This document shows, piece after piece, positions 22,454 to 38,018 of a DNA stretch of 64,000 nt (positions within the stretch are counted from its first letter, which is position 1; each line of letters starts with the position of its first letter). Position numbers and translations under genes: made by a program. A model generated the notes under the pieces. That model was not told where the DNA came from and made no database searches. It saw only the letters and a list, made by a program, of their open reading frames with translations. This DNA comes from Balneolaceae bacterium (GTDB taxonomy: Bacteria > Bacteroidota > Rhodothermia > Balneolales > Balneolaceae). The stretch is taken from the NCBI GenBank assembly GCA_017795005.1, contig CP051242.1:2132976-2196975 (forward strand), given 5' to 3'.

Positions 22454-23608
22454 ATGCAATTCCAGATAAATCCCTCCGAGTTCCTACTACTTATTGTAGA
22501 TGATACTGAGGCGAATATTAAATTATTATCTCATGTTTTAAGAGATGCAGGTTTTACGCCGATAGTTGCATTCAATGGAACTGACGCAATCGAACTTATC
22601 AGATCGAGACGTCCTGATTTAGTGCTCCTTGATATAATGATGCCTGATATGACAGGCTACGAGGTATGCAAAATCATAAATGATGATGACGAATTAAAAT
22701 CTACACCGATCATTTTTTTAAGTGCTTTATCAGAAACAAGTGATAAAGTGGAAGGATTTGAAGTCGGTGGTGTTGATTATATCACTAAACCTTACCAAAA
22801 AGATGAAGTTCTTGCCCGTATTCGTACTCACTTATTTCTAAATAAATTACAAAAGGAAAGAGAAGAAAGAATCGATATTCTAAGAAATAGAGAAATAGAA
22901 CTTCAGGAATTAAATGAAAAGAAGGATCAACTTGTACGAATTGTAAGTCATGATATAAAGAATCCCCTTACTGGAATCGTAGGATTAGCAAATTTGATTA
23001 AAGAAAACCCGGGTTTTTCATCGGAAGATATAAACCGAATGCTTACAGCCATGGAAAAGAGTGGAAAAAAACTGATGGACATGGTTGAAAAAGTATTGGA
23101 TGATGAAAATAATTCGAATTCTAAAGAATCATTAAAACTAACGGAAGGGTACCTAAAGGATTTGGTAGAAAAAGTTATTTCTGTAAATAAGCCTAAGGCT
23201 ATTTTAAAGAATATAAACCTCGAACTTGAAGAAAACATTAAGGCGAGCAAAGCTTCTCTTGATCAAACTAAAATTGAAATAGCATTAAATAATTTAGTAT
23301 CAAACGCTCTAAAATTTACTTTAAAAGATGGTACTGTAACCTTATCTGTTAAATCAAATACAGATAAAATTTTATTTGAAGTAAAAGACAATGGTATTGG
23401 GATTTCACCAAATATTATTCCACATCTGTTCGATAATGAAAAAAATAAAAAAGGGATTTCTAAACTTGGTACTGAAGGTGAAATTGGTACCGGCTTGGGT
23501 TTAGACGTTGTTCAAAAATATGTTAATATGCACGAAGGTAAAGTGTGGGTAGAATCTGAAGAACAAGTTGGAACAACTTTCTACATAGAGCTACCTTCTA
23601 AATCTTAG
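22454..23608 (+). CDS. Response regulator-histidine kinase hybrid, soluble
   Basis: A 384-residue cytoplasmic signalling protein: receiver domain (1-125; acidic pocket D16-D17, phospho-acceptor D60 in LVLLDIMMPD, conserved K112), a short coiled coil (130-160), a HisKA domain with phosphorylated His166 (VSHDIKNPLTG), and a HATPase domain with N box (LNNLVSNALKFT), G1 (VKDNGIGIS) and G2 (GEIGTGLGLDVV). There is no sensor or membrane segment, so its input must come by phosphotransfer to the receiver or by partner binding. It starts a same-strand run leading into the Pel-like genes, with only 12 bases to the next gene, and is the best candidate for control of that locus. Confidence 0.92.
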   Translation: MQFQINPSEFLLLIVDDTEANIKLLSHVLRDAGFTPIVAFNGTDAIELIRSRRPDLVLLDIMMPDMTGYEVCKIINDDDELKSTPIIFLSALSETSDKVEGFEVGGVDYITKPYQKDEVLARIRTHLFLNKLQKEREERIDILRNREIELQELNEKKDQLVRIVSHDIKNPLTGIVGLANLIKENPGFSSEDINRMLTAMEKSGKKLMDMVEKVLDDENNSNSKESLKLTEGYLKDLVEKVISVNKPKAILKNINLELEENIKASKASLDQTKIEIALNNLVSNALKFTLKDGTVTLSVKSNTDKILFEVKDNGIGISPNIIPHLFDNEKNKKGISKLGTEGEIGTGLGLDVVQKYVNMHEGKVWVESEEQVGTTFYIELPSKS

Positions 23609-23620
23609 AATTATTTATAA

Positions 23621-24556
23621 ATGAAGTATACTGTTCTGGTCATTGATGATGACGAACCAATCCATTTTATGACAAAGAATTTACTTGGTAGTGAATTCGA
23701 TTTGGTACATGCAAAAAATGCTCAGGAAGCAATTGATGTACTTTCAAATACAAAAATTAACCTCATTCTATCTGATATTCATATGCCAGGTTTAACTGGC
23801 TTAGAATTGCTTGAATCTTTACGTCAGGATACAGAGAAAAAGAAAATCCCTGTATTAATTATGACAAACCTTCCAACCGTAGAAAAAGAAAAGAAGGCAT
23901 TGGATTTAGGAGCAGCAGATTTTATAAAAAAAGAACTTTTCACATCAGATAGGGAACGCATTCTTGAGGTTGTAAGAATGAAACTGGTTACCGATATCGA
24001 TGTAAGTGATTTAGAAGATGGTCTGGCGGATAACAAAAACAAACTTGTTATGAGACTTATGGAAAGCGCACTTGCAGGCTCATTCAAAGATACTGTTGAT
24101 GTTCTTTGCTCAGAACTCTTAGCTATTTTAGATTCTAATTTCCTTGGTTTTTGGATTATTGATGGTGATAATGCAGAGCTTTTACATTTTTACGGAGATA
24201 AAAAACCTGACCAACATGACCTGGAGATACTTACTTCAGAGCAATCCTTCAAACACTTACAAGAAACACAGTATCCATATCTTTGTAATCATATCTATAA
24301 TGATGAACTTGGTTTTTTTACTCATTTTTCGAAAGACCAAAAACTTTCAGCCGAAATTGCAGTTCCTTTATTCTCGATAAATGAAAAGAATCTATTGATG
24401 AATAATCTTAAGGTGCCTGAAAAATCCTCAATGTTTGGAGTTATGATCATCAAGCGCTCTGTACTTTTTTCATCAAATGAATTTACGCTTATTTCGAGGT
24501 TGATCACTCAAACGGGATCGATTTTATGGCGTTTATTTAAAAAGAACGCAGGTTAG
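23621..24556 (+). CDS. Response regulator with C-terminal GAF-like domain
   Basis: A 311-residue protein with a receiver (1-125; acidic pocket D9-D11, phospho-acceptor D52 in LILSDIHMPG) and a C-terminal domain of about 165 residues (about 140-305). The latter has the GAF-like order helix, strands (FLGFWIIDGDNAELLHFYG), a long loop, strands (SAEIAVPLF, FGVMIIKRS) and a final helix (FTLISRLITQTGSIL). There is no DNA-binding, GGDEF or EAL domain, so the output is probably protein contact. It follows the hybrid kinase by 12 bases and precedes the first glycosyltransferase by 11. It is a likely partner of that kinase. Confidence 0.85.
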   Translation: MKYTVLVIDDDEPIHFMTKNLLGSEFDLVHAKNAQEAIDVLSNTKINLILSDIHMPGLTGLELLESLRQDTEKKKIPVLIMTNLPTVEKEKKALDLGAADFIKKELFTSDRERILEVVRMKLVTDIDVSDLEDGLADNKNKLVMRLMESALAGSFKDTVDVLCSELLAILDSNFLGFWIIDGDNAELLHFYGDKKPDQHDLEILTSEQSFKHLQETQYPYLCNHIYNDELGFFTHFSKDQKLSAEIAVPLFSINEKNLLMNNLKVPEKSSMFGVMIIKRSVLFSSNEFTLISRLITQTGSILWRLFKKNAG

Positions 24557-24567: not shown

Positions 24568-25749
24568 TTGAACGTTTTGCTTGTAATTGAAGGCACATAC
24601 CCGTGGTATCGTGGTGGGGTTAGTGAATGGGTCTATCAATATATAAGGAATTGCAATGGCTTTACTTTTTCAATTTTACAAATCGCTACAGATACTTTTA
24701 TTTCTTTAGAACCTGAACAAGCTTTATATCCAGTTCCAAATAATGTGAGTTCTTTCAATCGTATTTCACCTCCGGAATTAAACGGGAACTGGAGTTCTTC
24801 ACTTGAAGATTGGTATCAAAATTATGAAGTTGAACTAAGTAAACTTTATGATGCCGACTTAGTCCATGTAACCAATACTGGTTTTGCCGGTTGGCTTGGG
24901 ACCAGAATTTCTGATAGCACAAATCTGCCGTTAGTACTCACTGAGCATGCTGTGTATTGGCTTGAAGTTGAAATGGGAGCTGTTGCACTGGAATGCGGAT
25001 ATAAGATTCCAGAAAACCGAAAAGGCAAGATTGAGATTGTTACACTATTTAAGAATATCGCTGAAGAGGTTTATCAAAAAGCGAGTGATGTAGTAACTGT
25101 CTCCGAATGTAATATTCCTCTTCAAGTGCAGCTAGGTGCATTAAGAGTAAATTATATTCCAAATGGGATTCCTGAGAAATGGATTAATCCAAAGGAATCA
25201 TCTTCTGAAATTCCTGTAATTGGATGGGTTGGAAGATGTGCGGAAATGAAAAACCCACTGCAGTTTTTTGAATTAATAGAAGAATTTGAAAGCCAGAATT
25301 TCAGAAGTAAATTCCTGATGCTTTTAAGTGATGCTGGTGAAAAGGAGTTAGAAAAAAAGGTTAAAGAACAAGCACATAAATATCCAAAACTAACTATTGT
25401 TTGGGATCAACCAGCGGAAGCATATTTCAGTAAAATGGACATGCTGATTATTACTAGTCATAATGAATCACAACCACTTGTGATGTTTGAAGCCCTAGCA
25501 AAAAAGGTATTACCGGTGGGTAGAGAAGTGGGTGATTTGAATAACAAATATGGACTCACTTTCCCTTCTGATATTTCAAATTCTGAGTTGTGTAAAGAGT
25601 TAGTTCTTTTTTGGAATAATGAAAATGAAAGAAATCAATATATAAACGAAAGATTTGAAAAAGTTAAAACTGCTCATACCTGGGAGATAATTTTCTCTTC
25701 TTATCAAGACCTTTTGAGTAATACTATTAATAGTTATTCTATTATTTAA
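24568..25749 (+). CDS. GT4 glycosyltransferase, PelF-like (first copy)
   Basis: A 393-residue cytoplasmic retaining glycosyltransferase starting at TTG. The N-terminal acceptor half begins LLVIEGTYPWYRGGVSEWV, the PelF-type opening (EGTYP-x4-GGVS-x-W), and has LVLTEHAVYW where PelF has a TDHG/TEHG-Y motif. The donor half has the hinge YIPNGI, then GWVGRCAEMKNP, and the GT4 acidic motif in ESQPLVMFE (E-x7-E). It is shorter than PelF (~500 aa), mainly in the region after residue 90. Its last base overlaps the ATG of the second glycosyltransferase (TAATG), implying coupled translation. The pair may form the polymerising unit of a Pel-like polysaccharide; the sugar donor is not certain. Confidence 0.82.
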   Translation: MNVLLVIEGTYPWYRGGVSEWVYQYIRNCNGFTFSILQIATDTFISLEPEQALYPVPNNVSSFNRISPPELNGNWSSSLEDWYQNYEVELSKLYDADLVHVTNTGFAGWLGTRISDSTNLPLVLTEHAVYWLEVEMGAVALECGYKIPENRKGKIEIVTLFKNIAEEVYQKASDVVTVSECNIPLQVQLGALRVNYIPNGIPEKWINPKESSSEIPVIGWVGRCAEMKNPLQFFELIEEFESQNFRSKFLMLLSDAGEKELEKKVKEQAHKYPKLTIVWDQPAEAYFSKMDMLIITSHNESQPLVMFEALAKKVLPVGREVGDLNNKYGLTFPSDISNSELCKELVLFWNNENERNQYINERFEKVKTAHTWEIIFSSYQDLLSNTINSYSII

Positions 25750-27329
25750 TGAGCGAAAAACTCCCCATAGTTTTATTTGAAACAGAAGGCTCATATCCAT
25801 TTAGTGGAGGAGGGGTATCTACCTGGGCTCATATTTTGTGTTCTGAACTTCAGGGGAAGATTGATTTCTATATACTGGCAATAACAGGGCACCCATTTGT
25901 AGAAAGCAGGTATAAACTAACCGACAACGTAAAAAAAATTATACATGTGCCTCTTTGGGGGGTAGAAGAGCCTGTCCAGTATTATGATGAGGGAGTTCCA
26001 TTTTCAGGGCAAATCCAAAAAAAAGCACGAACCACAAGAAGTGTTATCAAAAGTCATTTCATGCCCATATTCAGGGATTTCACTAAATGTCTTTTCGATC
26101 CTTTCAGAGATCCTAAGGAGATAAGTGAGGTTCTGTATGGTATGTGGAAATACTTCATGCATTATGACTATAAGCTCACAATGAAGGAAACAGCTCTCTG
26201 GATTGATTTTAAGAATCAGCTTGAGAAAGATTTTAAAAATGAAGAGGATTACATAGACGAGCCCAGAGTTTTTGATGTTACATTCGGAATGCGGTGGTTA
26301 TATCATTTTTTGATGCCCTTAGCTGTAAATCTTCCAAAAGAAGTAGACGTTACTCATGCTACCATTGCCGGATTCCCGGCTTTATCTTCTATTATAGGTA
26401 AATATGAATATGGCACTGCAAGCATGGTTACAGATCATGGTGTATATATTAGAGAACGTCTTATTAATCTTGGAAGAGCAGATATGCCTTTCTTTTCAAA
26501 GAAACTCTTGTTAAACCTTTCTACGTTAGTTACCCGGGCTGTGTATTACTCTGCAGATATGATTTCTCCGGTTACTACGGCGAACAAAAAATGGGAACTT
26601 AAGTTCGAGGCAGAAGAGTCTAAAATTAGACCCATATATAATGGGGTAGATACAAATATCTTTAAACCTACTCAAAAACCCGCTCATACCGCTGATCAAC
26701 CTACTGTAGTTGCAGTAGCACATATTTTTCCTTTGAAAGATATAGAAACAATGATCCGAACCTGTGATCTGGTTCGGCAAGAAATACCTGAAGTACAATT
26801 TATTGTATATGGTAGTTTAGATGTTGATAAAGAATATGTTGAAAAATGTGAAGAGCTGATCAAAGATTTAGGAGTAGAAGAGAATTTTAGATTTGGAGGT
26901 TTTCATGATAAACCAAGTATGGTATTTAATGAAGGGGATATTTCAATTCTTACATCTATCTCTGAAGGGTTTCCTTATACCGTAATTGAATCGATGAGCT
27001 GTAGCCGCCCAGTTGTAGCGACAGATGTGGGGGGAATTAAGGATGCCCTCGAAGGTTGTGGAATACTTTGTAAGCCCAGAGATCCACAGGCACTAGCTGA
27101 AGGAGTAATAAAACTTTTAAGTGATACAAATCTTAGGCTTGAATTAGGTAAGAAATCCAGAGAAAAAGTGCTTGTAAACTTTACAACAAAGAAAAGTGTA
27201 GACTCTTATTATGAGAGTTATTTAGAACTTATGAAGGCTCCTAAGAAACCGCTTAAAGAGTCTGTAACCCGAAAGTCTGTACTAAACTTGCTTAAAAAGA
27301 TTGAGAAAATCAGTGAGCCAGCAATCTGA
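25749..27329 (+). CDS. pelF: PelF-like GT4 glycosyltransferase (exopolysaccharide synthase)
   Basis: A 526-residue glycosyltransferase of PelF length and layout. The opening FETEGSYPFSGGGVSTWAH, an insertion of about 130 residues (75-200) with hydrophobic and basic helices typical of PelF, MVTDHGVYIRERL, PIYNGVDTNIF, and the donor motif SEGFPYTVIESM (E-x7-E) are all present. PelF is the soluble UDP-sugar transferase that polymerises Pel, a galactosamine/N-acetylgalactosamine-type polymer in Pseudomonas. Assignment to a Pel-like role rests on this sequence plus the adjoining PelG-like, GH114 and deacetylase genes. It overlaps the upstream gene by 1 base and the downstream transporter by 17-29 bases. 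Confidence 0.85.
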   Translation: MSEKLPIVLFETEGSYPFSGGGVSTWAHILCSELQGKIDFYILAITGHPFVESRYKLTDNVKKIIHVPLWGVEEPVQYYDEGVPFSGQIQKKARTTRSVIKSHFMPIFRDFTKCLFDPFRDPKEISEVLYGMWKYFMHYDYKLTMKETALWIDFKNQLEKDFKNEEDYIDEPRVFDVTFGMRWLYHFLMPLAVNLPKEVDVTHATIAGFPALSSIIGKYEYGTASMVTDHGVYIRERLINLGRADMPFFSKKLLLNLSTLVTRAVYYSADMISPVTTANKKWELKFEAEESKIRPIYNGVDTNIFKPTQKPAHTADQPTVVAVAHIFPLKDIETMIRTCDLVRQEIPEVQFIVYGSLDVDKEYVEKCEELIKDLGVEENFRFGGFHDKPSMVFNEGDISILTSISEGFPYTVIESMSCSRPVVATDVGGIKDALEGCGILCKPRDPQALAEGVIKLLSDTNLRLELGKKSREKVLVNFTTKKSVDSYYESYLELMKAPKKPLKESVTRKSVLNLLKKIEKISEPAI

Positions 27330-28938
27330 GATAGCGAATGATACTCTAACCGTCGAAGAACGGCGTATTGAACTGGTTAAAACTGTTCGTAGTATGGTAG
27401 ATGTACCTATGAGTAGCTGGGCAGTTGCTGCAACTATTGAATCTTTAGGAATCCGGGATATAGATGCAGAATCAGACTATGAATTTAAGAACGTTTTTGA
27501 TCTTGCGGATTATGTATTCGAAAAAATACAACTAGAGATTAAAGATGAAGATCCAAGCAAAAGAAAGAAAGAAAAGAAAGACGGTTTATTAAAGTCAATT
27601 CAACTTTTCATAAAGCATTACAGTGGGGGTATGGTCTTATCTCTGCCAATGCTTGTTCAGATCGCAGCAATACTACTATTTGAGTATGCTCTTTGGGCTT
27701 GGTTAAGGTTCAATGAAGCACAAGCAACAGTAATTGCTTTTGGAACTATAACTGCTTTTGTAATTACAGGAGGATTCATTCAGGTAATTGGAAGACTGGT
27801 TTCTAAATATAAAGGGGAAGAGAATTACTATTTATCATGGAAAGCGATAACTAAAGTAATGCGATTTGCAGTTTTAGTTGTCTTTGGTTGTGCAATACTT
27901 TTAATACTTATGAATATGGCATTTCCATTTTATCCTGCCGGAATGCTGATTCTTTCTATTATTTATTACCTCTTAATTTCTTTCTTACTTCTTAATGCGG
28001 CAATTCTTTTTGCTTCTGAACTAAGATTCATGATCCTGTTCTCAATTACTTTAGGAACTGCAATAGTTATCTTGTTAATGAAAGCAGAACTTTTTGGTGT
28101 TTATATCTCTCAATGGATTGGGATTTTAATTGCTTCAGTCCTAATGGGAGGGTATGCGTTTTTATATTACAGAATTAAAATAAGTTCTTTAAAGCAGGAA
28201 TTATTAAAGCAATCGCTTCCAAATGCAGAAGTAAGCTATTACAATAATTACCGTTATTTTATTTATGGCTTCTGTTATTTTAGTTTTCTATTCATTGATA
28301 GATTGCTCGCCTGGTCTGCCGGTCCACCACCACCTCCGTATCTTATTTGGTTTAATACTCCTTACGAACTAGGAATGGACTGGGCATTAATTAGTTTTAT
28401 AATAACAATAGCTACTCTTGAATTCTGTATCCAATCTTTTTCCCGTTATTTGATACCAGCTCAAAAAGAATACACCCTCAATACTTTCGAGGCTTTTAAT
28501 AATTTTTTTAGACGTTTTTATGTAAAACAAGTATTCCTGGTTCTGGTAATAAGTATTATTTCGATTGTAGTTACTTATTATGGAATTTTGAGTCTGAGAA
28601 TGTTCGAAAATGAAATTCCTGAAATAAGAGATTTCTTTGCTAATCCTATCACTTTCAAAGTGTTTTGGATGGGTAGCATTGGATATGTCTTTTTGGTTTA
28701 TGGGTTGTTGAATTGTTTATTCTTTTTCACATTAAACAGAGCACCTTTTGCGCTTTATTCAATTATTTCTGCTTTAGTTATAAACTTCATTGTTGGTTAT
28801 ATATGCAGCAGAATTATTGGATTTGAATACGCAACTATAGGACTAGTTGTAGGAGCATTTCTTTTTGCACTTGCAACAGGTTTGAGAGCAAGACACTTTT
28901 TTAAACATTTGGATTATTATTATTACTCCGCATATTGA
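27301..28938 (+). CDS. pelG: PelG-like polysaccharide membrane transporter (MOP/Wzx-type)
   Basis: A 545-residue polytopic protein with about twelve membrane helices from residue ~110 on. The segment FIDRLLAWSAG followed by WFNTPYELGMDWAL matches the PelG pattern of a charged (D-R) membrane helix followed by a Y-[ED]-x-[AG]-x-x-[LW] loop. PelG is the inner-membrane partner of PelF. A cytosolic N-terminal extension of about 95 residues (ERRIELVKTVRSMVDVP..., then KNVFDLADYVFEKIQ) is not part of PelG as I know it. It begins at TTG 27301 or GTG 27313, both inside the end of the pelF-like gene. The identification is moderate: helices and context agree, but global similarity was not tested. Confidence 0.65.
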   Translation: MRKSVSQQSEIANDTLTVEERRIELVKTVRSMVDVPMSSWAVAATIESLGIRDIDAESDYEFKNVFDLADYVFEKIQLEIKDEDPSKRKKEKKDGLLKSIQLFIKHYSGGMVLSLPMLVQIAAILLFEYALWAWLRFNEAQATVIAFGTITAFVITGGFIQVIGRLVSKYKGEENYYLSWKAITKVMRFAVLVVFGCAILLILMNMAFPFYPAGMLILSIIYYLLISFLLLNAAILFASELRFMILFSITLGTAIVILLMKAELFGVYISQWIGILIASVLMGGYAFLYYRIKISSLKQELLKQSLPNAEVSYYNNYRYFIYGFCYFSFLFIDRLLAWSAGPPPPPYLIWFNTPYELGMDWALISFIITIATLEFCIQSFSRYLIPAQKEYTLNTFEAFNNFFRRFYVKQVFLVLVISIISIVVTYYGILSLRMFENEIPEIRDFFANPITFKVFWMGSIGYVFLVYGLLNCLFFFTLNRAPFALYSIISALVINFIVGYICSRIIGFEYATIGLVVGAFLFALATGLRARHFFKHLDYYYYSAY

Positions 28939-28948
28939 GGATTAAGAA

Positions 28949-30544
28949 ATGAAAGATGTAAAATCATACTTCAATTTAGTAGGCAACCGGTTAGGGAAAG
29001 CTTTTTCTATCCGTGAGTTTGATACAGAGGACGAACTGGAATTCTGGTCACTCTCAGCTGAACATATGTCGAGGGCTAAACCGCCTTCATTTCAGGATAT
29101 TGTACAATGGATTGATATCCTTTATAAAGCTCCAGTTCATATAGTGTATAAAAAAGAAGGGGATGAATTAATCCTGTTTAAAAGATTTGTTAACGTTGAA
29201 AACCTTGTTGGGAAAAAGAAAACTGCAAACTATACCGATGTCGAAAAAGAAGTAATTAATAATTTTGAACAACAGGTTCAAAACCTGCAACAAAAAAGAC
29301 AATGGTATCCTGATTTAACTGAACATGGAATCTCTTCAACTTCGATAGGAAACTGCGAACATATACCTTTATTTGATGAGAACAGGGATGTTTGGGGGAT
29401 ATATATTGTAGGCCCTGATTCCAAATGTCCCGAAGTAGTTGTTCCGAGACTATCCATCGTTGGTAGATTACTTTCTATTTGGCTTATCAAAATTGAATCG
29501 GAAGAAGAAGGTCAAAGAAATAAGTACCGTGATAAAATGGAGGGAATTGTTTCTGAATTGGGTAGTGGGGCACTTAATACAGAGGCACTATCCAGGTTTT
29601 TGCTGCGGTTTTTGATGAATGGATTTAATTGTGGAAGTGGAGCGGTTCTCGAAGTACAAAATGGATCTCCCAGTTTGGTGTACAGTGAGAATATTGAGGA
29701 TAATCAATTAGGACTTATTGCAAGCGAACTAGTTGAAATTTCTAAAACTTCATCTCAACAGAAGTTGCATGGTGAAATAGATATAAAAGAAGTTGGCCAA
29801 ATAAATTATTTCTCGTTTATAGGAAAAGACAGTGAAGGCTGGATTATCCTTCCTGGAAAATTGGCAAATCCAGAATATGATGCAGAATTAGTTCAGGAAT
29901 TAATCACAAATCAGCTCGCCAGTTTACTGGATTTTAGAAATGAGAATAACACCTTTACGCAACTTCTTATCGATTCTTATCATGGTTTATTGAGATCCGT
30001 TGAAAAATCAAGGGAAAAAACGGAATATCATACTCCAAGAATGATCGCTTTTGTAGAGCGTTTCGCAATGATTTTTGGGCTTGATGAAAGCGAAACGGAA
30101 ATCATCAAAACTACAGCTAAACTTCATGATATTGGTTATATAGGTTCTATTAGCGTAGAAAAAAACATTTCTATCGGTTCAGAGTTAGCTCACCCTTTAA
30201 CTGGTTATAAATTAATTGATCAATTACCGATCCACGATGACATTAAACAAGGTGTACTTACACACCAGGAATGGGTAAATGGAGAAGGTAGTCCCAGAAA
30301 CTTAACTGGAGAAAATATTTCCTGGACAGGCAAGGTAATTGGGATATTTGAATTCATTGTAGAGTTTATAGAATCCAACAAAGATGATGAAAGCAAATCA
30401 GCAGATCAATGGATTGATGAACTTTCTCAAAATATCATTGAAAGGGCAGACCTCCAGTTTGATATGGTTTTGGTACCAACCGTTATTGAATTGATCAAAA
30501 TGATTGGTTGGGAACTTTGTTGTCAACTTGGTACAGAAGATTAG
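28949..30544 (+). CDS. GAF-type sensor with degenerate HD-GYP domain
   Basis: A 531-residue soluble protein. Residues ~130-185 and ~200-330 look like two GAF-type domains (FDENRDVWGIYIVGP; GSGAVLEVQNGSPSLVY). Residues ~340-530 are HD-GYP-like: His361 (EYHTPR), H393-D394 (KLHDIGYIGS), His415 (AHPLTGY) and LTHQEWVNGEGSPRNLTGE. Three diagnostic positions differ from active cyclic-di-GMP phosphodiesterases: Lys of HDxGK is Tyr, HH is HQ (439-440), and GYP is GSP. It occupies the place of PelD, which in Pseudomonas is a GAF/degenerate-GGDEF cyclic-di-GMP receptor. A receptor role is a reasonable but unproved reading. It lies 10 bases after the PelG-like gene. Confidence 0.75.
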   Translation: MKDVKSYFNLVGNRLGKAFSIREFDTEDELEFWSLSAEHMSRAKPPSFQDIVQWIDILYKAPVHIVYKKEGDELILFKRFVNVENLVGKKKTANYTDVEKEVINNFEQQVQNLQQKRQWYPDLTEHGISSTSIGNCEHIPLFDENRDVWGIYIVGPDSKCPEVVVPRLSIVGRLLSIWLIKIESEEEGQRNKYRDKMEGIVSELGSGALNTEALSRFLLRFLMNGFNCGSGAVLEVQNGSPSLVYSENIEDNQLGLIASELVEISKTSSQQKLHGEIDIKEVGQINYFSFIGKDSEGWIILPGKLANPEYDAELVQELITNQLASLLDFRNENNTFTQLLIDSYHGLLRSVEKSREKTEYHTPRMIAFVERFAMIFGLDESETEIIKTTAKLHDIGYIGSISVEKNISIGSELAHPLTGYKLIDQLPIHDDIKQGVLTHQEWVNGEGSPRNLTGENISWTGKVIGIFEFIVEFIESNKDDESKSADQWIDELSQNIIERADLQFDMVLVPTVIELIKMIGWELCCQLGTED

Positions 30545-30546
30545 AA

Positions 30547-31410
30547 ATGAGATTCATTAGGAAGAGTATAATTCTAGGGTTACTTATGACTATTCTAGCT
30601 TGCAACAATTCTTCTGTGATAAAAAACCAAAGTCTTACTTCGTCTACGCCTTTTGGTGTTTGTTATGCTAAAGTGTCCCCCGATCAGGTTAGGAATTATA
30701 AAATGGTGATTATTGAACCTGATTTTTATTCAAAAGGTGAGATTCAAGCCTTAAAACAAAATGGTACTAAAGTTATTGCATACATAACATTAGGGGAAGT
30801 TGATAAGAATAGATGGTATTACCCTAAATTGGAGCAAATAGGTTTTTTAGGGACGAATGAAAGTTGGGGTAGTTCATATTTAAATCTGAAAGAACAAGAA
30901 GTAATATCAATAATCTTAGATCGTGTCTTACCTGAAATTATTTTAAAAGGAGTAGATGGTATCTTTCTTGATACTGTGGATGCTGTTGCACCATATACGG
31001 AACGTAAAGACTTAGAACCTAATATGGTGGCTCTGATAAAAGAAATCAGAGCGCGACACCCGGAGATTACTATCATTCAAAATGCAGGACTATTCCTTTT
31101 AGATGAAACCCATACTGATGTAGATGCAGTATTAATAGAAGACATTGCTTCAGGATATGATTTTGTAAAAAAATCCTATTATATCAAGGACTTAGCACAG
31201 TTTAATGAACGTAAAGATTTAGTCATTTCTACTGCCAATGAGTATAACATCCCTGTATTTATTCTTGATTTTTCAATCACTAAACCTGGTATTTCAGAAA
31301 TTAAATCAAGGTTAGATACACTTGGTGTACCATATTTTATAAGCGATATCAATTTAACCCAATTACCTGATCGTCCTTCAACTGTTGCCAATAAAGTGAG
31401 GGTGAAATAG
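30547..31410 (+). CDS. GH114 (polygalactosaminidase-like) lipoprotein, stand-alone PelA hydrolase module
   Basis: A lipoprotein of 287 residues from the ATG at 30547; an upstream TTG lies inside the previous gene. The signal peptide ends ILAC (Cys19). The mature part is a TIM-barrel of the GH114/TM1410 type: FGVCYAKVSPDQV, VIAYITLGEVD, GVDGIFLDTVDAV with D142, TIIQNAG, and an acidic residue E198 (AVLIEDI), in the position order of the PelA hydrolase catalytic region. This family cleaves alpha-1,4-galactosaminogalactan/Pel-type polymers. In Pseudomonas it is the N-terminal domain of PelA, while here it is a separate envelope protein, with the deacetylase encoded two genes later. It probably trims or releases polymer during export. 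Confidence 0.85.
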   Translation: MRFIRKSIILGLLMTILACNNSSVIKNQSLTSSTPFGVCYAKVSPDQVRNYKMVIIEPDFYSKGEIQALKQNGTKVIAYITLGEVDKNRWYYPKLEQIGFLGTNESWGSSYLNLKEQEVISIILDRVLPEIILKGVDGIFLDTVDAVAPYTERKDLEPNMVALIKEIRARHPEITIIQNAGLFLLDETHTDVDAVLIEDIASGYDFVKKSYYIKDLAQFNERKDLVISTANEYNIPVFILDFSITKPGISEIKSRLDTLGVPYFISDINLTQLPDRPSTVANKVRVK

Positions 31411-31411
31411 T

Positions 31412-33475
31412 ATGTATTTCTTCTATGCACTCTTCGCTGTTTTAAGAATTATCCTAGTTTTTTACCTCTTATTCGGGGTGCTCGCTCCGTTATTTCTCCC
31501 ATCAATAAAGAAAGAAAAGAGCATAGATAAGTTGATGTATTCCTGGATAGGCCTGGGAGGATTAATCATTATTGATGTCATGGTTCTAACAGTATTAGGG
31601 CTTTATGATTTTATCAGCTTATTTGTCACTCTCCTTTTGATTCCTTTTTTAGTCTATTTGTTTAAAAAGAAAAGGGAGGGTTTGACATTCTCTGAATCCA
31701 TTAGGTTTATTGAAACAAGCATTATTCAGAATCATGTTAATTTTATTGAAAACACTGTAACCATTTGGGATAGGTTCAGGGGTAATGCAAGTAAGAGAGG
31801 AAAAGGGTTTAAAAAAAGTTTTAGTAAACTATTCTGGGAACCTTATTTCTTTGCGGTTTTCATTGCTCTCTCGGGCTCTATAATCCGAATTATCCCCGCA
31901 ATTCAAAACTCTTCTCCATTTACAAGAAACTGGTACTTCGAGTTAACAAGTGTTAAAGCACTTTCACTACAGAATTATTTCGACCTGATTCCTGAACCAA
32001 AAGGGTTGCATGTACTCGTTCATGTGTTCAGTACGCTAACTCAAGTTACCCCCGAGATGATACTTCATATCCTCGGTGCCTTAACTAGTTTTTTTCTGGC
32101 ACTAATTATCTTTTGGGTAATAAATGTAATCACAGATTATAGAAATCAGATAGCTTCACTTTTTGGGATGGCGATTTATGCACTTACTCCAATGCTGTTG
32201 TCACCTATTATTCTGGATCTGGAAGTTGAAGCGAATGAAATTTCATTATCACTTACTTTTGCGATTCCTACTTGTATCTTTTTCTTAAGGCAAATCAGAC
32301 TAGACGAAAATAGTTTCTGGTTTTATATAGTAACGGGTTTGTTTGCGACAGCATTTATAAATCTGTTTGTATTCATTGTTGTATTGCTCCCAATTCTGGT
32401 GTTAGGTCTTCTTACACTTCCTCAAAAAAAATACTCATCCAGTCTTTTGAGGGCTGTTCTTTATTTGATAATAAGCTCAGTGTTGGCGCTAAGTCCTTAT
32501 ATTATTGTTTGTTTGATCAATGGAATTTCTATCGGAGATTTCTTTCAACAGGAACTTTTTGATACACTTGTATTCAGTTATTTTCCTAATCTTATTACCT
32601 ATTTGGATCAACTCAGTGTTTATTATTTGATTGGTGCAATTCTGATGATATTTATTAATAGTGTTTTACTCTTCCTGAAAAAAGTAGATCATAAAAAAGA
32701 GCTCGTTTTCCTCTTACTTTTTGCACTCATTGCATATATATATACTCCTTATTTTCCATTTTCTTATGTGATAATTGACCCCGATCAGCTAAACATGTTT
32801 TACGCTCTTACCATTGTTGTATTTCTCGCTTTGGTATTTTTGAACTTATCTCGACTATTCTATTTCATTTTCAAAAAAAGCAGCAAATTATATACTCTTA
32901 TCAATACAGGTTCTGCAATTGCACTGATAAGTACTTTTATTTTTATGCAACAAGGTGTATTAGTAAGCAGAGCGTTACCGGAAACATTACCCAATGGATT
33001 TTTTGAAGCTTATTACGATATAGTTGGTGATAGAATACCATATACTTATGCAACTGTGGGTCCGGAACTGGATAGACAACTCGCTTTGAATCGGCATTTC
33101 TTTATGAATTATGAATTCTTTCTGGATAACTATGGTGTAATAGATTCTTTATACCAACAGTATCTTTCCCTTCCCAAAGATTTAAGAGGTGAAGATGATA
33201 TTCCTCCGGCAAGTATTTTTCTTTTTCTCGAAAAACCACCTTATTCGAGTATTCAGCAGGGAATTCTATATAACTCTCAAAGTACCATGAATGATATGCT
33301 ACAATGGATTAGCGTATTCGAAAGTCTGGAAGGACGGAATATCAAGGTATATTATGAAAGTGAAGACGCTATTATTTACGAAATAGTAAATAGAGAAAAT
33401 GAGTCGAAAGTTGGAGGTGTTTTAAGGAATGTATTTCCGGCAAAAGAAGAGAGGTCAGATGGAATATTGGATTAA
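31412..33475 (+). CDS. Large polytopic membrane protein, GT-C-like
   Basis: A 687-residue protein of no family I can name. It has about twelve hydrophobic helices (roughly residues 5-28, 40-90, 140-160, 210-300, 305-355, 365-440, 455-520), a lumenal-type loop with PEPKGLHVLVHVFSTLTQVTP, and a C-terminal soluble domain (about 525-670). The G-L-H-x-L loop with following hydrophobic helices, plus a soluble tail, is the plan of GT-C glycosyltransferases and of some O-antigen-type polymerases. No catalytic residue could be assigned. It sits between the GH114 and deacetylase-barrel genes (start 2 bases after one, 17-base overlap with the other), so it almost certainly belongs to the exopolysaccharide machine. 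Confidence 0.75.
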   Translation: MYFFYALFAVLRIILVFYLLFGVLAPLFLPSIKKEKSIDKLMYSWIGLGGLIIIDVMVLTVLGLYDFISLFVTLLLIPFLVYLFKKKREGLTFSESIRFIETSIIQNHVNFIENTVTIWDRFRGNASKRGKGFKKSFSKLFWEPYFFAVFIALSGSIIRIIPAIQNSSPFTRNWYFELTSVKALSLQNYFDLIPEPKGLHVLVHVFSTLTQVTPEMILHILGALTSFFLALIIFWVINVITDYRNQIASLFGMAIYALTPMLLSPIILDLEVEANEISLSLTFAIPTCIFFLRQIRLDENSFWFYIVTGLFATAFINLFVFIVVLLPILVLGLLTLPQKKYSSSLLRAVLYLIISSVLALSPYIIVCLINGISIGDFFQQELFDTLVFSYFPNLITYLDQLSVYYLIGAILMIFINSVLLFLKKVDHKKELVFLLLFALIAYIYTPYFPFSYVIIDPDQLNMFYALTIVVFLALVFLNLSRLFYFIFKKSSKLYTLINTGSAIALISTFIFMQQGVLVSRALPETLPNGFFEAYYDIVGDRIPYTYATVGPELDRQLALNRHFFMNYEFFLDNYGVIDSLYQQYLSLPKDLRGEDDIPPASIFLFLEKPPYSSIQQGILYNSQSTMNDMLQWISVFESLEGRNIKVYYESEDAIIYEIVNRENESKVGGVLRNVFPAKEERSDGILD
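33446..33454 (+). promoter_or_regulatory. Shine-Dalgarno fixing the start of the deacetylase-barrel gene
   Basis: GAAGAGAGG, 4 bases before the ATG at 33459, supports that start over an in-frame ATG at 33429, which would lie deeper in the previous gene and precede the hydrophobic signal by a basic tail. Confidence 0.6.
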
Positions 33476-36400
33476 AAGACTGCTTCTTCCAATAGGGATT
33501 CTTATTCTGATTACAAACTGTGATTTTCGGTTTAATATTTCAGATAGTATTAGTTCTTTAATTGAACAAGATCCTATAGTTATAGTGGTTAAACACCGTC
33601 AGGATACTCTTAGTTTGGAGATATCTGATCACGTAACAATCTCAATGCAATATGCGAAATTTCCTGTGAAAACTATAGATTTGGGACTTGTTTCTGATGG
33701 TATTCAAATAGATGAATCTGTAAGAACAATCGTTATTACAACTGAATTAATTTCGCAACTCGGTGATTTAGAAATTGAAAAGTTGATCGCCTTTGTTGCT
33801 AATGGTAATAATATAGTCTTTACAGGTCCGGTTACTTACGACAACTTCGCTTTCTTACAAGGGATACTACCTTTTACGGATTATGAAATAAACAGACAGG
33901 CCAGGGGTATTCATTTATTTGAAAACATGTTTCCAAAACACGCTGGTAAAACTTATTATACCCCTGCTGAAAATCCACATGAAGGACTAGCTGATAATCA
34001 ATTTATTAAGGATGTACAAATAGCAGCAGCAGCTGGAAATGATCCGGAATACCCGCTAGTTGTAATCAATAAAATCGGGCTTGGAGAGGTCATTACAATA
34101 AACAGCACCTTAATGTATGAGAAACTTTATCGTGGAGTAATTTTCTCATCTATTTTGAAAGGATTAGACGGAATACCTTATAACGTTGCGAATGTTGCAA
34201 CTATATTTTTGGATGATTTTCCAGCTCCATTGTACAACGAAAAACTGGCGCCAATTGATGAAGAATATGATGTGACCCACGCTGAATTCGTATCCGATAT
34301 CTGGTGGCCGGATATGAAAGCATTTGCAGATACCTTTGATATCTCTTATTCAGCTATGACAGCCTTCAATTATAATGCTAACGTAATTCCACCCTTTGAT
34401 TTTGAAGAATGGCTCGCAGGTAAAAAAATAGTTAATGGAAGACAGGTAGATGCAAGTATAGCTGTAGCTCGAGATATATTGGATACGCGGCATGAATTAG
34501 CATTTCATGGATATAACCACTTTTCACTTTGGCTGGAAGACTGGGATAATGTGAACTTTATGGCAAGCTCTGTATACGCAGCCCGAAAACGTTGGAGAAT
34601 TGATAGAATGGGAGATCTACCAATATCATATGTTCCTCCAACAAATTATATAGACTCGACCGGAATATCAGCTATTATGAAAGGCATGCCTTCAATAAGG
34701 TATATGTCTTCTTTATATCTCGGAGATGTTGAACTGGGTACTGGCAGAGAGTTTGGGTATGATCCTTACGCTCAAAATGACCGATTATTTAATTATCCCC
34801 GAATAACAAGTGGATTCTCAATGAATGAAAATTCCTTATTTGAACAGCAAGGAATGCAGTTATTAACCGGCATCTGGACTCATTTCATACACCCAGACGA
34901 TGTATTCCAGGTAAATCAAAGGGATGAAGACGTGTTCAGGAGTCGTAACCCGCTTGGTCTTGGTTGGAAATCACATGATGTTTATGGATATGGTTTATAT
35001 CATGTTTTCCGTCATAGAGTTCTTTTTACAAACGAACGATACCCAAATTTAAGATATCTAGCTGCAATTGATGCTGGGGCAATAACAGAGGATTGGAAAA
35101 ATAGTTTCGTAATTCATAAAGAAGATCCTTATTCAAGAAAACTGATCCCTGTTTCGAATCCCGGATATAAAAAGAAAAGGGAAAATGAAAAGCATTATTG
35201 GTTTACTTATGTCAGTAATTTTAATACTGAGGAGTTTGAAGAATCTTTATCACATTTCGAGATAGATTTTACCATTACAAAACTATGGGATGGTAATTTG
35301 TATCAATTTAGTTCTGAAATGGATTCAATTGTAGTCCCAAATTTCGACCCAAAATACAGGTTTGACAATCAGTTTAAAACAGCACAATTAAACGATGCAA
35401 TTGTTCAAAGCAGGAACTATCAAACTGAGTTTACAGATGAGTTTGGCAACCTAATCAATATCGTTGAATTACCCCAGGAAGATTGGAATGACACTCGTTT
35501 AGAAGACGCTTTAAGAGCATACAATAATAATCCTGAAAACATACAATTTCAGGAAGATCTTATTCGACTTAGTATAGAATTTAGTGATATAAGGAGGGCT
35601 ATAATTATTCTTGAGCGTCGTTTGTTAGGATCATCAAAGTGGGCACAAAACGATTTAGAACGTTTGTTTACTTATTATGGATGGGAAGGATTGACTAATC
35701 AGGCTCAAAACTTTTTAGAAAGATTATGGTTACGATATCGAAGCAAAGAAGTAATTGATGTTAAAAACTTCGCACTACAAAAATTAGATATCTACAGCGA
35801 TGAATTTAACCTTCGCTGGATGAAAAGAGAAAAAGAGCTTTATCCTAATAATGAAGCTGTTGTACTCAGATACACCCGATTAATTGAGAATCAGGAAAAC
35901 TGGTCTGTTATTAAACCTGAATTGCTACGATTAATAAGATTAAACCCTGATAGCGATTCACTGTATGCTTACACAATGCAAAGATCATTCTTTTACGATT
36001 CTGCAGGAACAAGTATTGAATTACTTGAAGGTTTTCCCAATTCAAAACATTCTCAGTTAGATCTGTTTGCTACGAATTTCGCATTAATCTATGCTTTTGA
36101 ACGAAACAATTATCCGAAGGCTCTATATTGGGCTGACCGTGCTGATAATTTTAATAAGTCTACAAGACTAAACTGGCTGGCTCAACTAAACCTTTATTCA
36201 GAGTATCAAAAAGAAGCACTCAGATTTTTAGAAGAGGATCCTGATGATGATAGCTTGAGAATACAAATCGGTAGAGAACTTTATTATGAAGGATTTACAG
36301 AGCAGGGTAGAGAGGTTCTGTATCCTTTATTTTTGAAGTATCCAAATGGAGGTACAGGCGCGCACCAAATCATGAATACTGAAATACAGTATTTTAGTTA

Positions 36401-37373
36401 TGAAGAAAGAAAATCATTGTACAAAAACTATCCCGCCTTCTTCAGTGAAAAAGAGAAAGAAAGATTAAAGGATGAGCTGAGATGGACTGAAGGAACAAGA
36501 GTATCTGCTTTTGGAGAATACAGAGATGATAATTTCAATAACCGGTTTGCTAGGTTTGGTATATCATCACAATTTGGACATAGAAGAAAACAGACTCATA
36601 TGTTCAAACTTGAAGACTTATTTTTTGAAAGTATTGGAAATACAGGTTTAAGCAATTTTGTTGGAGTTGGATATGAGTTTTCTAGCAGATATGCTGATCA
36701 GGCTAATGAATTCAGAGCTGGTGGAGGATTGTTTACAGGATCCGGAGACATGCTTTTAGAACTTTTCACTTCTTTATCCAAATCCGGAGTTAGTTCATTT
36801 ACTTCAGGTGAATTATCATTTGGACCGGAGTTTACAAACCCTGCAGTATCAAATAACTTTAACAAATTTCAATTAGAAGGGTATAGAGAAGATAACTGGA
36901 AGCAGGAAAAATGGGTTACTTCATTATCAACGGTTGGTACGTATTATACCAATTCAGTTACTGAATATGAGTTGACAGGAAGACTCTACTATAGATTATA
37001 CAACAAAGAAATAAGAATTCGCCCGCTTGTTTCATTAAGTTGGTCTGATGCATCTAAGAACTTTACTTCGGGAACTCCGTACTTTACACCCGATAAATAT
37101 TTCGAACAGGGTATTGGAGCTGATTTGCGTCTAAGAAAACCCGATACATTTGAATTCTTCCAGAAACTCGAATTAGAATTAATGGCCAGGCATGAATTTA
37201 GAAATGGATTATTTGGAACAGGTAGGCTTCAATATGATCAAAAATTTAGGCGATATTGGGAATTACGAGTAGGAACAGAAATCTCGACCAGTAAAGTATA
37301 CAGTTCAAATCGTGTATTTTTTACCTTATCCTATTATTTTAAAAAGAAACTTCCTCAAACAATCCAAAAGTAA
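33459..37373 (+). CDS. Fused DUF2194/PelA-type deacetylase, TPR-like region and outer-membrane beta-barrel
   Basis: A 1304-residue exported protein. Residues 1-22 are a signal, probably of lipoprotein type (LITNC, Cys21, with an unusual Asn before it). Residues ~40-240 resemble the GATase-like domain that precedes the PelA deacetylase. Residues ~245-620 are a DUF2194/CE4-like deacetylase with D252-D253 (FLDDFPAP), His350 and His354 (HGYNH) and His475 (WTHFIHPDD). Residues ~650-1000 are helical, TPR-like. From ~1004 to the end the chain alternates as an outer-membrane barrel, closing VFFTLSYYF plus ten residues. In Pseudomonas these parts are PelA and PelB, two proteins. The likely role is deacetylating Pel-like polymer and passing it through the outer membrane. 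The barrel and TPR calls rest on pattern only. Confidence 0.8.
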   Translation: MEYWIKRLLLPIGILILITNCDFRFNISDSISSLIEQDPIVIVVKHRQDTLSLEISDHVTISMQYAKFPVKTIDLGLVSDGIQIDESVRTIVITTELISQLGDLEIEKLIAFVANGNNIVFTGPVTYDNFAFLQGILPFTDYEINRQARGIHLFENMFPKHAGKTYYTPAENPHEGLADNQFIKDVQIAAAAGNDPEYPLVVINKIGLGEVITINSTLMYEKLYRGVIFSSILKGLDGIPYNVANVATIFLDDFPAPLYNEKLAPIDEEYDVTHAEFVSDIWWPDMKAFADTFDISYSAMTAFNYNANVIPPFDFEEWLAGKKIVNGRQVDASIAVARDILDTRHELAFHGYNHFSLWLEDWDNVNFMASSVYAARKRWRIDRMGDLPISYVPPTNYIDSTGISAIMKGMPSIRYMSSLYLGDVELGTGREFGYDPYAQNDRLFNYPRITSGFSMNENSLFEQQGMQLLTGIWTHFIHPDDVFQVNQRDEDVFRSRNPLGLGWKSHDVYGYGLYHVFRHRVLFTNERYPNLRYLAAIDAGAITEDWKNSFVIHKEDPYSRKLIPVSNPGYKKKRENEKHYWFTYVSNFNTEEFEESLSHFEIDFTITKLWDGNLYQFSSEMDSIVVPNFDPKYRFDNQFKTAQLNDAIVQSRNYQTEFTDEFGNLINIVELPQEDWNDTRLEDALRAYNNNPENIQFQEDLIRLSIEFSDIRRAIIILERRLLGSSKWAQNDLERLFTYYGWEGLTNQAQNFLERLWLRYRSKEVIDVKNFALQKLDIYSDEFNLRWMKREKELYPNNEAVVLRYTRLIENQENWSVIKPELLRLIRLNPDSDSLYAYTMQRSFFYDSAGTSIELLEGFPNSKHSQLDLFATNFALIYAFERNNYPKALYWADRADNFNKSTRLNWLAQLNLYSEYQKEALRFLEEDPDDDSLRIQIGRELYYEGFTEQGREVLYPLFLKYPNGGTGAHQIMNTEIQYFSYEERKSLYKNYPAFFSEKEKERLKDELRWTEGTRVSAFGEYRDDNFNNRFARFGISSQFGHRRKQTHMFKLEDLFFESIGNTGLSNFVGVGYEFSSRYADQANEFRAGGGLFTGSGDMLLELFTSLSKSGVSSFTSGELSFGPEFTNPAVSNNFNKFQLEGYREDNWKQEKWVTSLSTVGTYYTNSVTEYELTGRLYYRLYNKEIRIRPLVSLSWSDASKNFTSGTPYFTPDKYFEQGIGADLRLRKPDTFEFFQKLELELMARHEFRNGLFGTGRLQYDQKFRRYWELRVGTEISTSKVYSSNRVFFTLSYYFKKKLPQTIQK

Positions 37374-37375
37374 CC

Positions 37376-37684
37376 TTGAAATTAATATACAGACATAGTG
37401 AGTGGTTTGTTTTTTTAATGGGTTTAATCCTAATGGCGACAATGAATCCTTATGAGGATGGAACATCATGGTGTTTATTTGATGCACTAGGCTTTTCATA
37501 CTGCCCGGGAGAAGGACTGGGGCATTCAATTGCGTTTCTTTTTAGAGGAGATGTTAAAGAGGCTTTTAATGCGAATCTTATGGGGCCATTCGTCGTAATT
37601 GGTCTCAGTATCAGAATTTTATCGATTTGGAAGGATTTATTAATAAAACAATCAATGGATTTACAGGAGGATTATAATGTCTGA
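37376..37684 (+). CDS. DUF2752-like small membrane protein
   Basis: A 102-residue protein starting at TTG, 2 bases after the previous stop. Two hydrophobic helices (about 10-25 and 66-86) flank a loop with CLFDALGFSYCPGEGLGHS and FLFRGDVKEAFNANLMGP. This matches the DUF2752 plan (C-P..TG..CPGCG..R..., then RGD-x-x-x-A-x-x-x-N), but the usual CPGCGxxR reads CPGEGLGH, so one cysteine and the Arg are lost. The function of the family is unknown. It overlaps the TM2 gene by 8 bases and is probably the second last gene of the exopolysaccharide unit. Confidence 0.7.
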   Translation: MKLIYRHSEWFVFLMGLILMATMNPYEDGTSWCLFDALGFSYCPGEGLGHSIAFLFRGDVKEAFNANLMGPFVVIGLSIRILSIWKDLLIKQSMDLQEDYNV

Positions 37685-38018
37685 AGTAATGGATTTCATA
37701 CCAGAGGCTCAGGGTGATGAAGCTTTATATCTTGGTAAACTACTTAGTGAAATGAGTGATGATCAGAAAAAGAAATTTTCTAATGTGTATCGGGCAAGGA
37801 GAAAAGACCCTCAAACTATAATGATTTTATGCTTGCTTGGATTTTTGGGTTTAGCTGGTGTTCACAGATTCGTTCTTAATCAAATAGGGATGGGAATTCT
37901 CTACTTTTTTACCGCTGGCTTATGTTTAATTGGAGTAATTGTAGATTTAGTAAATCACAAGGATTTAACTTTTCAATATAACAGGGGAGTAGCTCAGGAA
38001 ATCAAGTCTATGCTTTGA
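37677..38018 (+). CDS. TM2-domain protein
   Basis: A 113-residue protein. The TM2 signature is complete: two hydrophobic helices joined by GLAGVHRFVLNQIGMGILYF and then DLVNHKD, which is the G-x-x-G-x-H-x-F-Y pattern with Val for Tyr. The N-terminal 50 residues are polar. AGGAGG at 37665-37670, 6 bases from the ATG, gives it one of the best ribosome-binding sites in the cluster. TM2 proteins have no single known role. Its stop ends the plus-strand run, 15 bases before the converging DUF5777 gene. Confidence 0.88.
   Translation: MSEVMDFIPEAQGDEALYLGKLLSEMSDDQKKKFSNVYRARRKDPQTIMILCLLGFLGLAGVHRFVLNQIGMGILYFFTAGLCLIGVIVDLVNHKDLTFQYNRGVAQEIKSML

Follow-up and report, generated by a model that had tools for sequence, protein, structure and literature searches.

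A Pel-like operon of Balneolaceae encodes a PelADA-type deacetylase and a predicted TPR-barrel pore as one polypeptide

The window analysed here, a stretch of 64,000 nucleotides (positions 2132976–2196975 of the contig), comes from a Balneolaceae genome consisting of one closed 3.75 Mb contig, and it holds a Pel-like operon whose genes all lie on the + strand. A hybrid histidine kinase and a response regulator stand at the operon head (22454..24556), followed by a second, divergent PelF-like GT4 glycosyltransferase (24568..25749), the PelF glycosyltransferase (25749..27329; NCBIfam NF038011, over the cut-off), a PelG-family membrane exporter with 12 predicted TM helices (27301..28938; PF16933, over the cut-off), an HD-domain protein in place of a regulator such as PelD (28949..30544), a GH114 (PelA-hydrolase-like) probable lipoprotein (ILACN; 30508..31410) and a 12-TM protein of no known family (31412..33475). 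The latter adjoins, on its upstream side, the fusion gene studied here (33459..37373), behind which lie two small membrane proteins (DUF2752 and TM2; 37376..38018) that are conserved downstream within the family.

Nearly all the longer loci that we read, including those of Maribacter and Fodinibius, have PelF, PelG, the 12-TM protein and the fusion, together with GH114 in the neighbourhood, and the 12-TM gene immediately precedes the fusion in all of them but one (L045), where other genes intervene. The 12-TM protein carries a soluble C-terminal domain and obtained only weak single-member matches in PDB and Pfam searches (the best being DUF6541); it is possibly a missing Pel component. The HD-domain protein is similar to a c-di-GMP phosphodiesterase domain, while the Cetobacterium and Victivallales loci have GAF proteins rather than an HD protein. 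PelC was not found in the operon, the one strong LpoB-family match of the genome being unlinked, about 149 kb upstream of the window, and the PelD profile (PF16963) matched nothing in this genome, in a search in which no positive control rang either. Among the remaining operon genes, we recognised no outer-membrane pore. As for variation between loci, a GH114-like gene precedes PelF and a second one stands between PelG and the 12-TM gene in several loci of the flavobacterial side (L046, L048, L011); another shows a partial pel duplicate (PelF, PelG, GH114 and 12-TM fragments; L055:14277-18089) upstream of the intact operon; and in a third case the GH114 gene is in two fragments (L063:8952-9815), possibly a frameshift or a pseudogene.

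The frame of the fusion runs uninterrupted from 33429 to 37373 (+) and encodes 1314 amino acids counted from the first ATG. Because an AGAGAGG motif lies just 5' of the ATG at 33459 and the resulting protein of 1304 amino acids agrees with the N-termini of relatives, this ATG is the better start of the two; residue numbers below refer to the 1314-residue frame, from which those of the 1304-residue frame are obtained by subtracting 10. A sequence-only reading of this DNA had proposed that a deacetylase, a TPR region and an outer-membrane barrel are joined on this single chain, and the intact frame, the DUF2194 match, the TPR-like helices and the predicted barrel bear it out. According to the frame, the Pfam matches and the structure matches, the chain begins with a signal peptide of probable lipoprotein type (33459..33521; LILITNC with Cys31, delimited from relatives' N-termini) and a CBM114-like segment N-terminal to the CE26 domain (33549..34184; aligned to the structure 9ZAU from residue 56, with limits taken from the Bacillus enzyme discussed below). 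There follow a CE26-type de-N-acetylase domain (residues 253–500; 34185..34928), recognised by alignment and invariant residues, a beta-rich third domain (residues 501–645; 34929..35363), drawn from the model and the domain layout of the Bacillus enzyme, a variable-length linker (residues 646–689; 35364..35495), a TPR-like solenoid of about 20 helices (residues 690–1021; 35496..36491), based on profiles and AlphaFold2, and a 16-strand beta barrel (residues 1024–1303; 36498..37337), based on AlphaFold2, Foldseek and residue alternation. The probable lipid anchor of the earlier reading fared less uniformly: a Cys follows the hydrophobic stretch at the lipobox position in 20 of the 24 distinct relatives, mostly within a canonical lipobox, but in none of the other four, and the window protein's own ITNC is non-canonical, being weak at position −1. 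A lipid anchor thus seems common, but not universal, among the homologues.

The enzyme half matches Pfam DUF2194 over residues 38–561 (E 2e-63), and its sole solved relative is 9ZAU (phmmer E 5.9e-34, residues 56–495), i.e., the Bacillus cereus PelADA (BcPelADA), a demonstrated alpha-1,4-GalNAc de-N-acetylase made of CBM114, CE26 and beta-rich domains (PMC13254593). In our alignment, D262, D263, H360, H364, R458, H488 and D491 of the fusion fall on the catalytic residues of BcPelADA, whose set corresponds, in fusion numbering, to the base D262, the metal ligand D263, the HxxxH motif, R458, the acid H488 and D491 (PMC13254593); D262/D263, H360xxxH364, R458, H488, D490 and D491 are all invariant across 26 sequences. 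The residues first pointed out as D252-D253 and H350-x3-H354 are these same D262/D263 and H360xxxH364, and were correctly picked. H475, taken as catalytic in the same reading, has to be replaced: it is H485, in HFIHPDD, which is likewise invariant and neighbours the residue that the alignment to BcPelADA designates as the catalytic acid, H488 (478 in the 1304-residue numbering). Similarly, the label of PelA-type deacetylase is right in that this part has retained the catalytic residues and shares homology with an enzyme proven to de-N-acetylate Pel, but not as regards family, as CE21 PelA was rejected as its identity (hhalign against an alignment of three CE21-type PelA proteins, prob 0.6%). 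Given this lack of profile similarity to CE21 PelA, the enzyme half is classed, from its sequence, as PelADA/CE26-type with an N-terminal CBM114-like domain, and deacetylation of alpha-1,4-GalNAc is its predicted activity. No GH domain was recognised by Pfam within the fusion protein, GH114 being a separate gene. Beyond the homology over residues 56–495 and the catalytic set (D-D, HxxxH, P, R, H, D), BcPelADA shares with the fusion a three-domain layout and a pel operon context, but it is a protein of 610 amino acids with a single transmembrane helix, devoid of TPR or barrel, and has been modelled at the cytoplasmic membrane beside PelG (PMC13254593).

For the pore half, an AlphaFold2 model built from a 25-sequence alignment (pLDDT 89) predicts about 20 helices and then 16 strands. 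The helical region (residues 690–1021) is TPR-like, as had been proposed: PDB TPR proteins match its profile (a consensus TPR protein at 2e-4, the BcsC TPRs at 0.005), and TPR Pfam models are matched by 7 of 25 homologues. For the C-terminal 280 residues, the model predicts a 16-strand barrel (pLDDT about 90) of amphipathic strands, hydrophobic at outward and polar at inward positions, with inward faces that are about neutral (21 acidic and 17 basic residues). Foldseek returned polysaccharide secretins as the best matches, the five top PDB folds being, in order, BcsC, BcsC, PgaA, PelB and BcsC, with all other barrels ranking below and the best TM-score going to PgaA 4y25 (0.72 by target), so that the barrel claimed by the earlier reading is upheld by the model. 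The latter also places a short helix between strands 7 and 8 and lengthens the loop that joins strands 11 and 12, reminiscent of the 16-strand PelB, which has a helix (Plug-I) and an outer loop at these two places (PMC12141448), a likeness assessed against PelB only. By sequence profile, PelB was rejected as the identity of the barrel, since hhalign with the whole PelB covers the TPRs only (prob 30%) and falls to prob 0.6% with the barrel alone, and BcsC and PgaA were rejected as not significant. A PgaA_barrel Pfam trace in one homologue stays under the cut-off, and a weak collinear alignment to PgaA lies near TPY(F/Y)xP. The pore half, initially described as PelB-type, is therefore best placed by its predicted structure in the PgaA/BcsC/PelB fold class of TPR-barrel polysaccharide secretins, but it is not PelB by sequence.

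In a model spanning the CE domain to the barrel (pTM 0.45), the placement of the active site relative to the pore is not fixed. Two homologues extend for about 300 residues beyond the barrel (L010:13850-14743 and L061:1354-2343); a SPOR domain over the cut-off and a weak CarboxypepD_reg match were detected in one of these extensions, and a weak SPOR match in the other. Such extensions suggest peptidoglycan binding, and a SPOR domain at this place would fit the periplasmic C-terminus that an even-stranded barrel requires.

The fused state is the rule in the host's phylum wherever the gene is found, while separate proteins are found in other bacteria. Indeed, a strong DUF2194 match occurs in 26 of 394 genomes of the phylum, every time in a frame of 1268–1349 amino acids, and the pore profile picks the same 26 genomes and no others above generic TPR matches; neither an unfused barrel nor an unfused DUF2194 protein was found among the 394. 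A set of 196 genomes from the class yielded 24 loci in 23 genomes, all with frames of 1283–1602 amino acids; the fusion does recur in related genomes, where the earlier reading had proposed to look for it. Outside the phylum, all strong DUF2194 matches in 98 genomes from the phylum of a Fusobacteriaceae locus (L012) are single proteins (586–705 amino acids), and DUF2194 is likewise a single protein in Cetobacterium, B. cereus and Victivallales. In a tree of 36 enzyme halves, one branch (100/100) parts the fused from the single proteins, although two long-branch rows call for caution, and distance matrices of the CE and barrel parts are correlated (r=0.91; 0 of 1000 permutations as high). Both this correlation and the recurrence of the architecture in 26 of the 394 genomes go beyond chance. 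With this split and this correlation, the data fit one old fusion that would then have been inherited as a unit.

Several known systems combine comparable parts. Pseudomonas Pel has a deacetylase, TPRs and a 16-strand barrel in PelA (GH166-CE21) and PelB, working with PelC, and PelA docks on the PelB TPRs, binding TPRs 9–14, while PelB raises PelA deacetylase activity (PMC12022489). There, however, the proteins are separate, the CE family is another, and there are 19 TPRs, a PelC ring and an anionic barrel interior, whereas the fusion locus has no PelC in the operon, a neutral barrel interior and a separate GH114. PgaB/PgaA (PNAG) and BcsZ/BcsC (cellulose) also pair a modifying enzyme with a TPR-barrel secretin, and BcsC and PgaA are among the best folds for our pore half, but the enzymes and polymers are others and the genes normally separate. 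An exception is the BcsZ-BcsC fusion of Zymomonas, a synthase-dependent system in which a periplasmic enzyme and the pore in the outer membrane form one chain; it differs from ours in having a glycoside hydrolase instead of a deacetylase, and in belonging to a cellulose operon (PMC7112194). Finally, a DUF2194 deacetylase accompanies PelF and PelG in Pel-like loci from Fusobacteriota (Cetobacterium, L065) and Victivallales (L013) too, but as a single protein of ~600 amino acids; in Victivallales, the neighbouring gene encodes a separate 665-residue TPR protein whose C-terminus, judged by eye, is barrel-like and probably a barrel. The single DUF2194 proteins of Cetobacterium and of the set of 98 genomes occur in diderms, and no pore gene was recognised in the Cetobacterium operon.

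We consider it probable that the fusion gene encodes, as one polypeptide, the periplasmic and outer-membrane half of a synthase-dependent exopolysaccharide system of Pel-like type, deacetylating a Pel-like polymer and passing it to its own pore. Under this scheme, PelF would polymerise a GalNAc-rich polymer, which PelG would carry through the inner membrane. The barrel, aided in most relatives by what is presumably an N-terminal lipid anchor, would keep the CBM/CE module at the outer membrane, where this module would strip acetyl groups from the arriving chain. The TPR groove would then guide the chain, by now partly deacetylated, into that same molecule's barrel. The fusion would set one enzyme per pore, in place of the Pseudomonas PelA-PelB contact via the TPRs, while the separate GH114 lipoprotein would fill the role of the PelA hydrolase domain.

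The Pel-like chemistry of the polymer is deduced from homology, and another amino-sugar polymer (e.g., PNAG-like) has to be considered, since the barrel resembles PgaA as much as PelB, as seen in the top TM-score to PgaA, the below-cut-off PgaA_barrel trace and the weak collinear alignment, and no PelC or PelD was found in the operon (the PelD search lacking a positive control). Yet the same operon has PelF, PelG, a GH114 protein, whose family includes endo-alpha-1,4-polygalactosaminidases, and a deacetylase of PelADA rather than PgaB type, which makes a non-Pel polymer rather unlikely. The C-terminal part might also anchor the deacetylase in the outer membrane, for display or retention, instead of forming an export channel, as the presence of a lipid anchor and a barrel on one chain and the not clearly anionic barrel interior could suggest. 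We regard this as very improbable: the best folds are polysaccharide secretins, TPRs included, and the operon has PelF, PelG and the deacetylase, but no other pore for the outer membrane.

At the level of the chain itself, cleavage at the linker after secretion would leave the enzyme and the pore as two separately acting proteins, the situation in Pseudomonas, and reduce the fusion to a co-translation device. Both models have their low-confidence segment within the linker, and the length of the aligned 640–700 stretch ranges from 24 to 88 residues across homologues; nonetheless, no conserved cleavage motif is visible by eye in the linker alignment, and no split genes were found among the phylum homologues, though a cut chain would tolerate splitting, so that we judge cleavage to be distinctly unlikely. 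That the joint is an assembly or gene-calling artefact, a concern raised along with the original observation, can be practically dismissed, as the genome is a single closed contig and dozens of independent genomes have the same frame.

Our literature search, which covered papers outside subscription, found no published account of a PelA-PelB-type fusion, so that a deacetylase-pore fusion is apparently undescribed, the BcsZ-BcsC fusions being a precedent for joining an enzyme to a pore. The locus also marks a Pel-like biofilm system in Balneolaceae and flavobacteria, of which we found no description in the papers searched. At about even odds, it represents a phylum-specific Pel-like type, with a single 1300-residue deacetylase-exporter providing one active site per pore, with PelC, PelD and PelE absent or replaced, and with an HD protein plus an uncharacterised 12-TM protein in the operon. 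The fusion would also extend the CE26/CBM114 enzymes, recently defined and characterised in one Gram-positive bacterium, to diderms, within an outer-membrane pore. In exopolysaccharide secretion, it is an open question what links modification of the polymer to its passage through the outer membrane, the PelA-PelB and PgaB-PgaA contacts being known or modelled only between separate proteins. A natural and widespread single-chain version would fix the stoichiometry of the two activities and offer a direct structural target.
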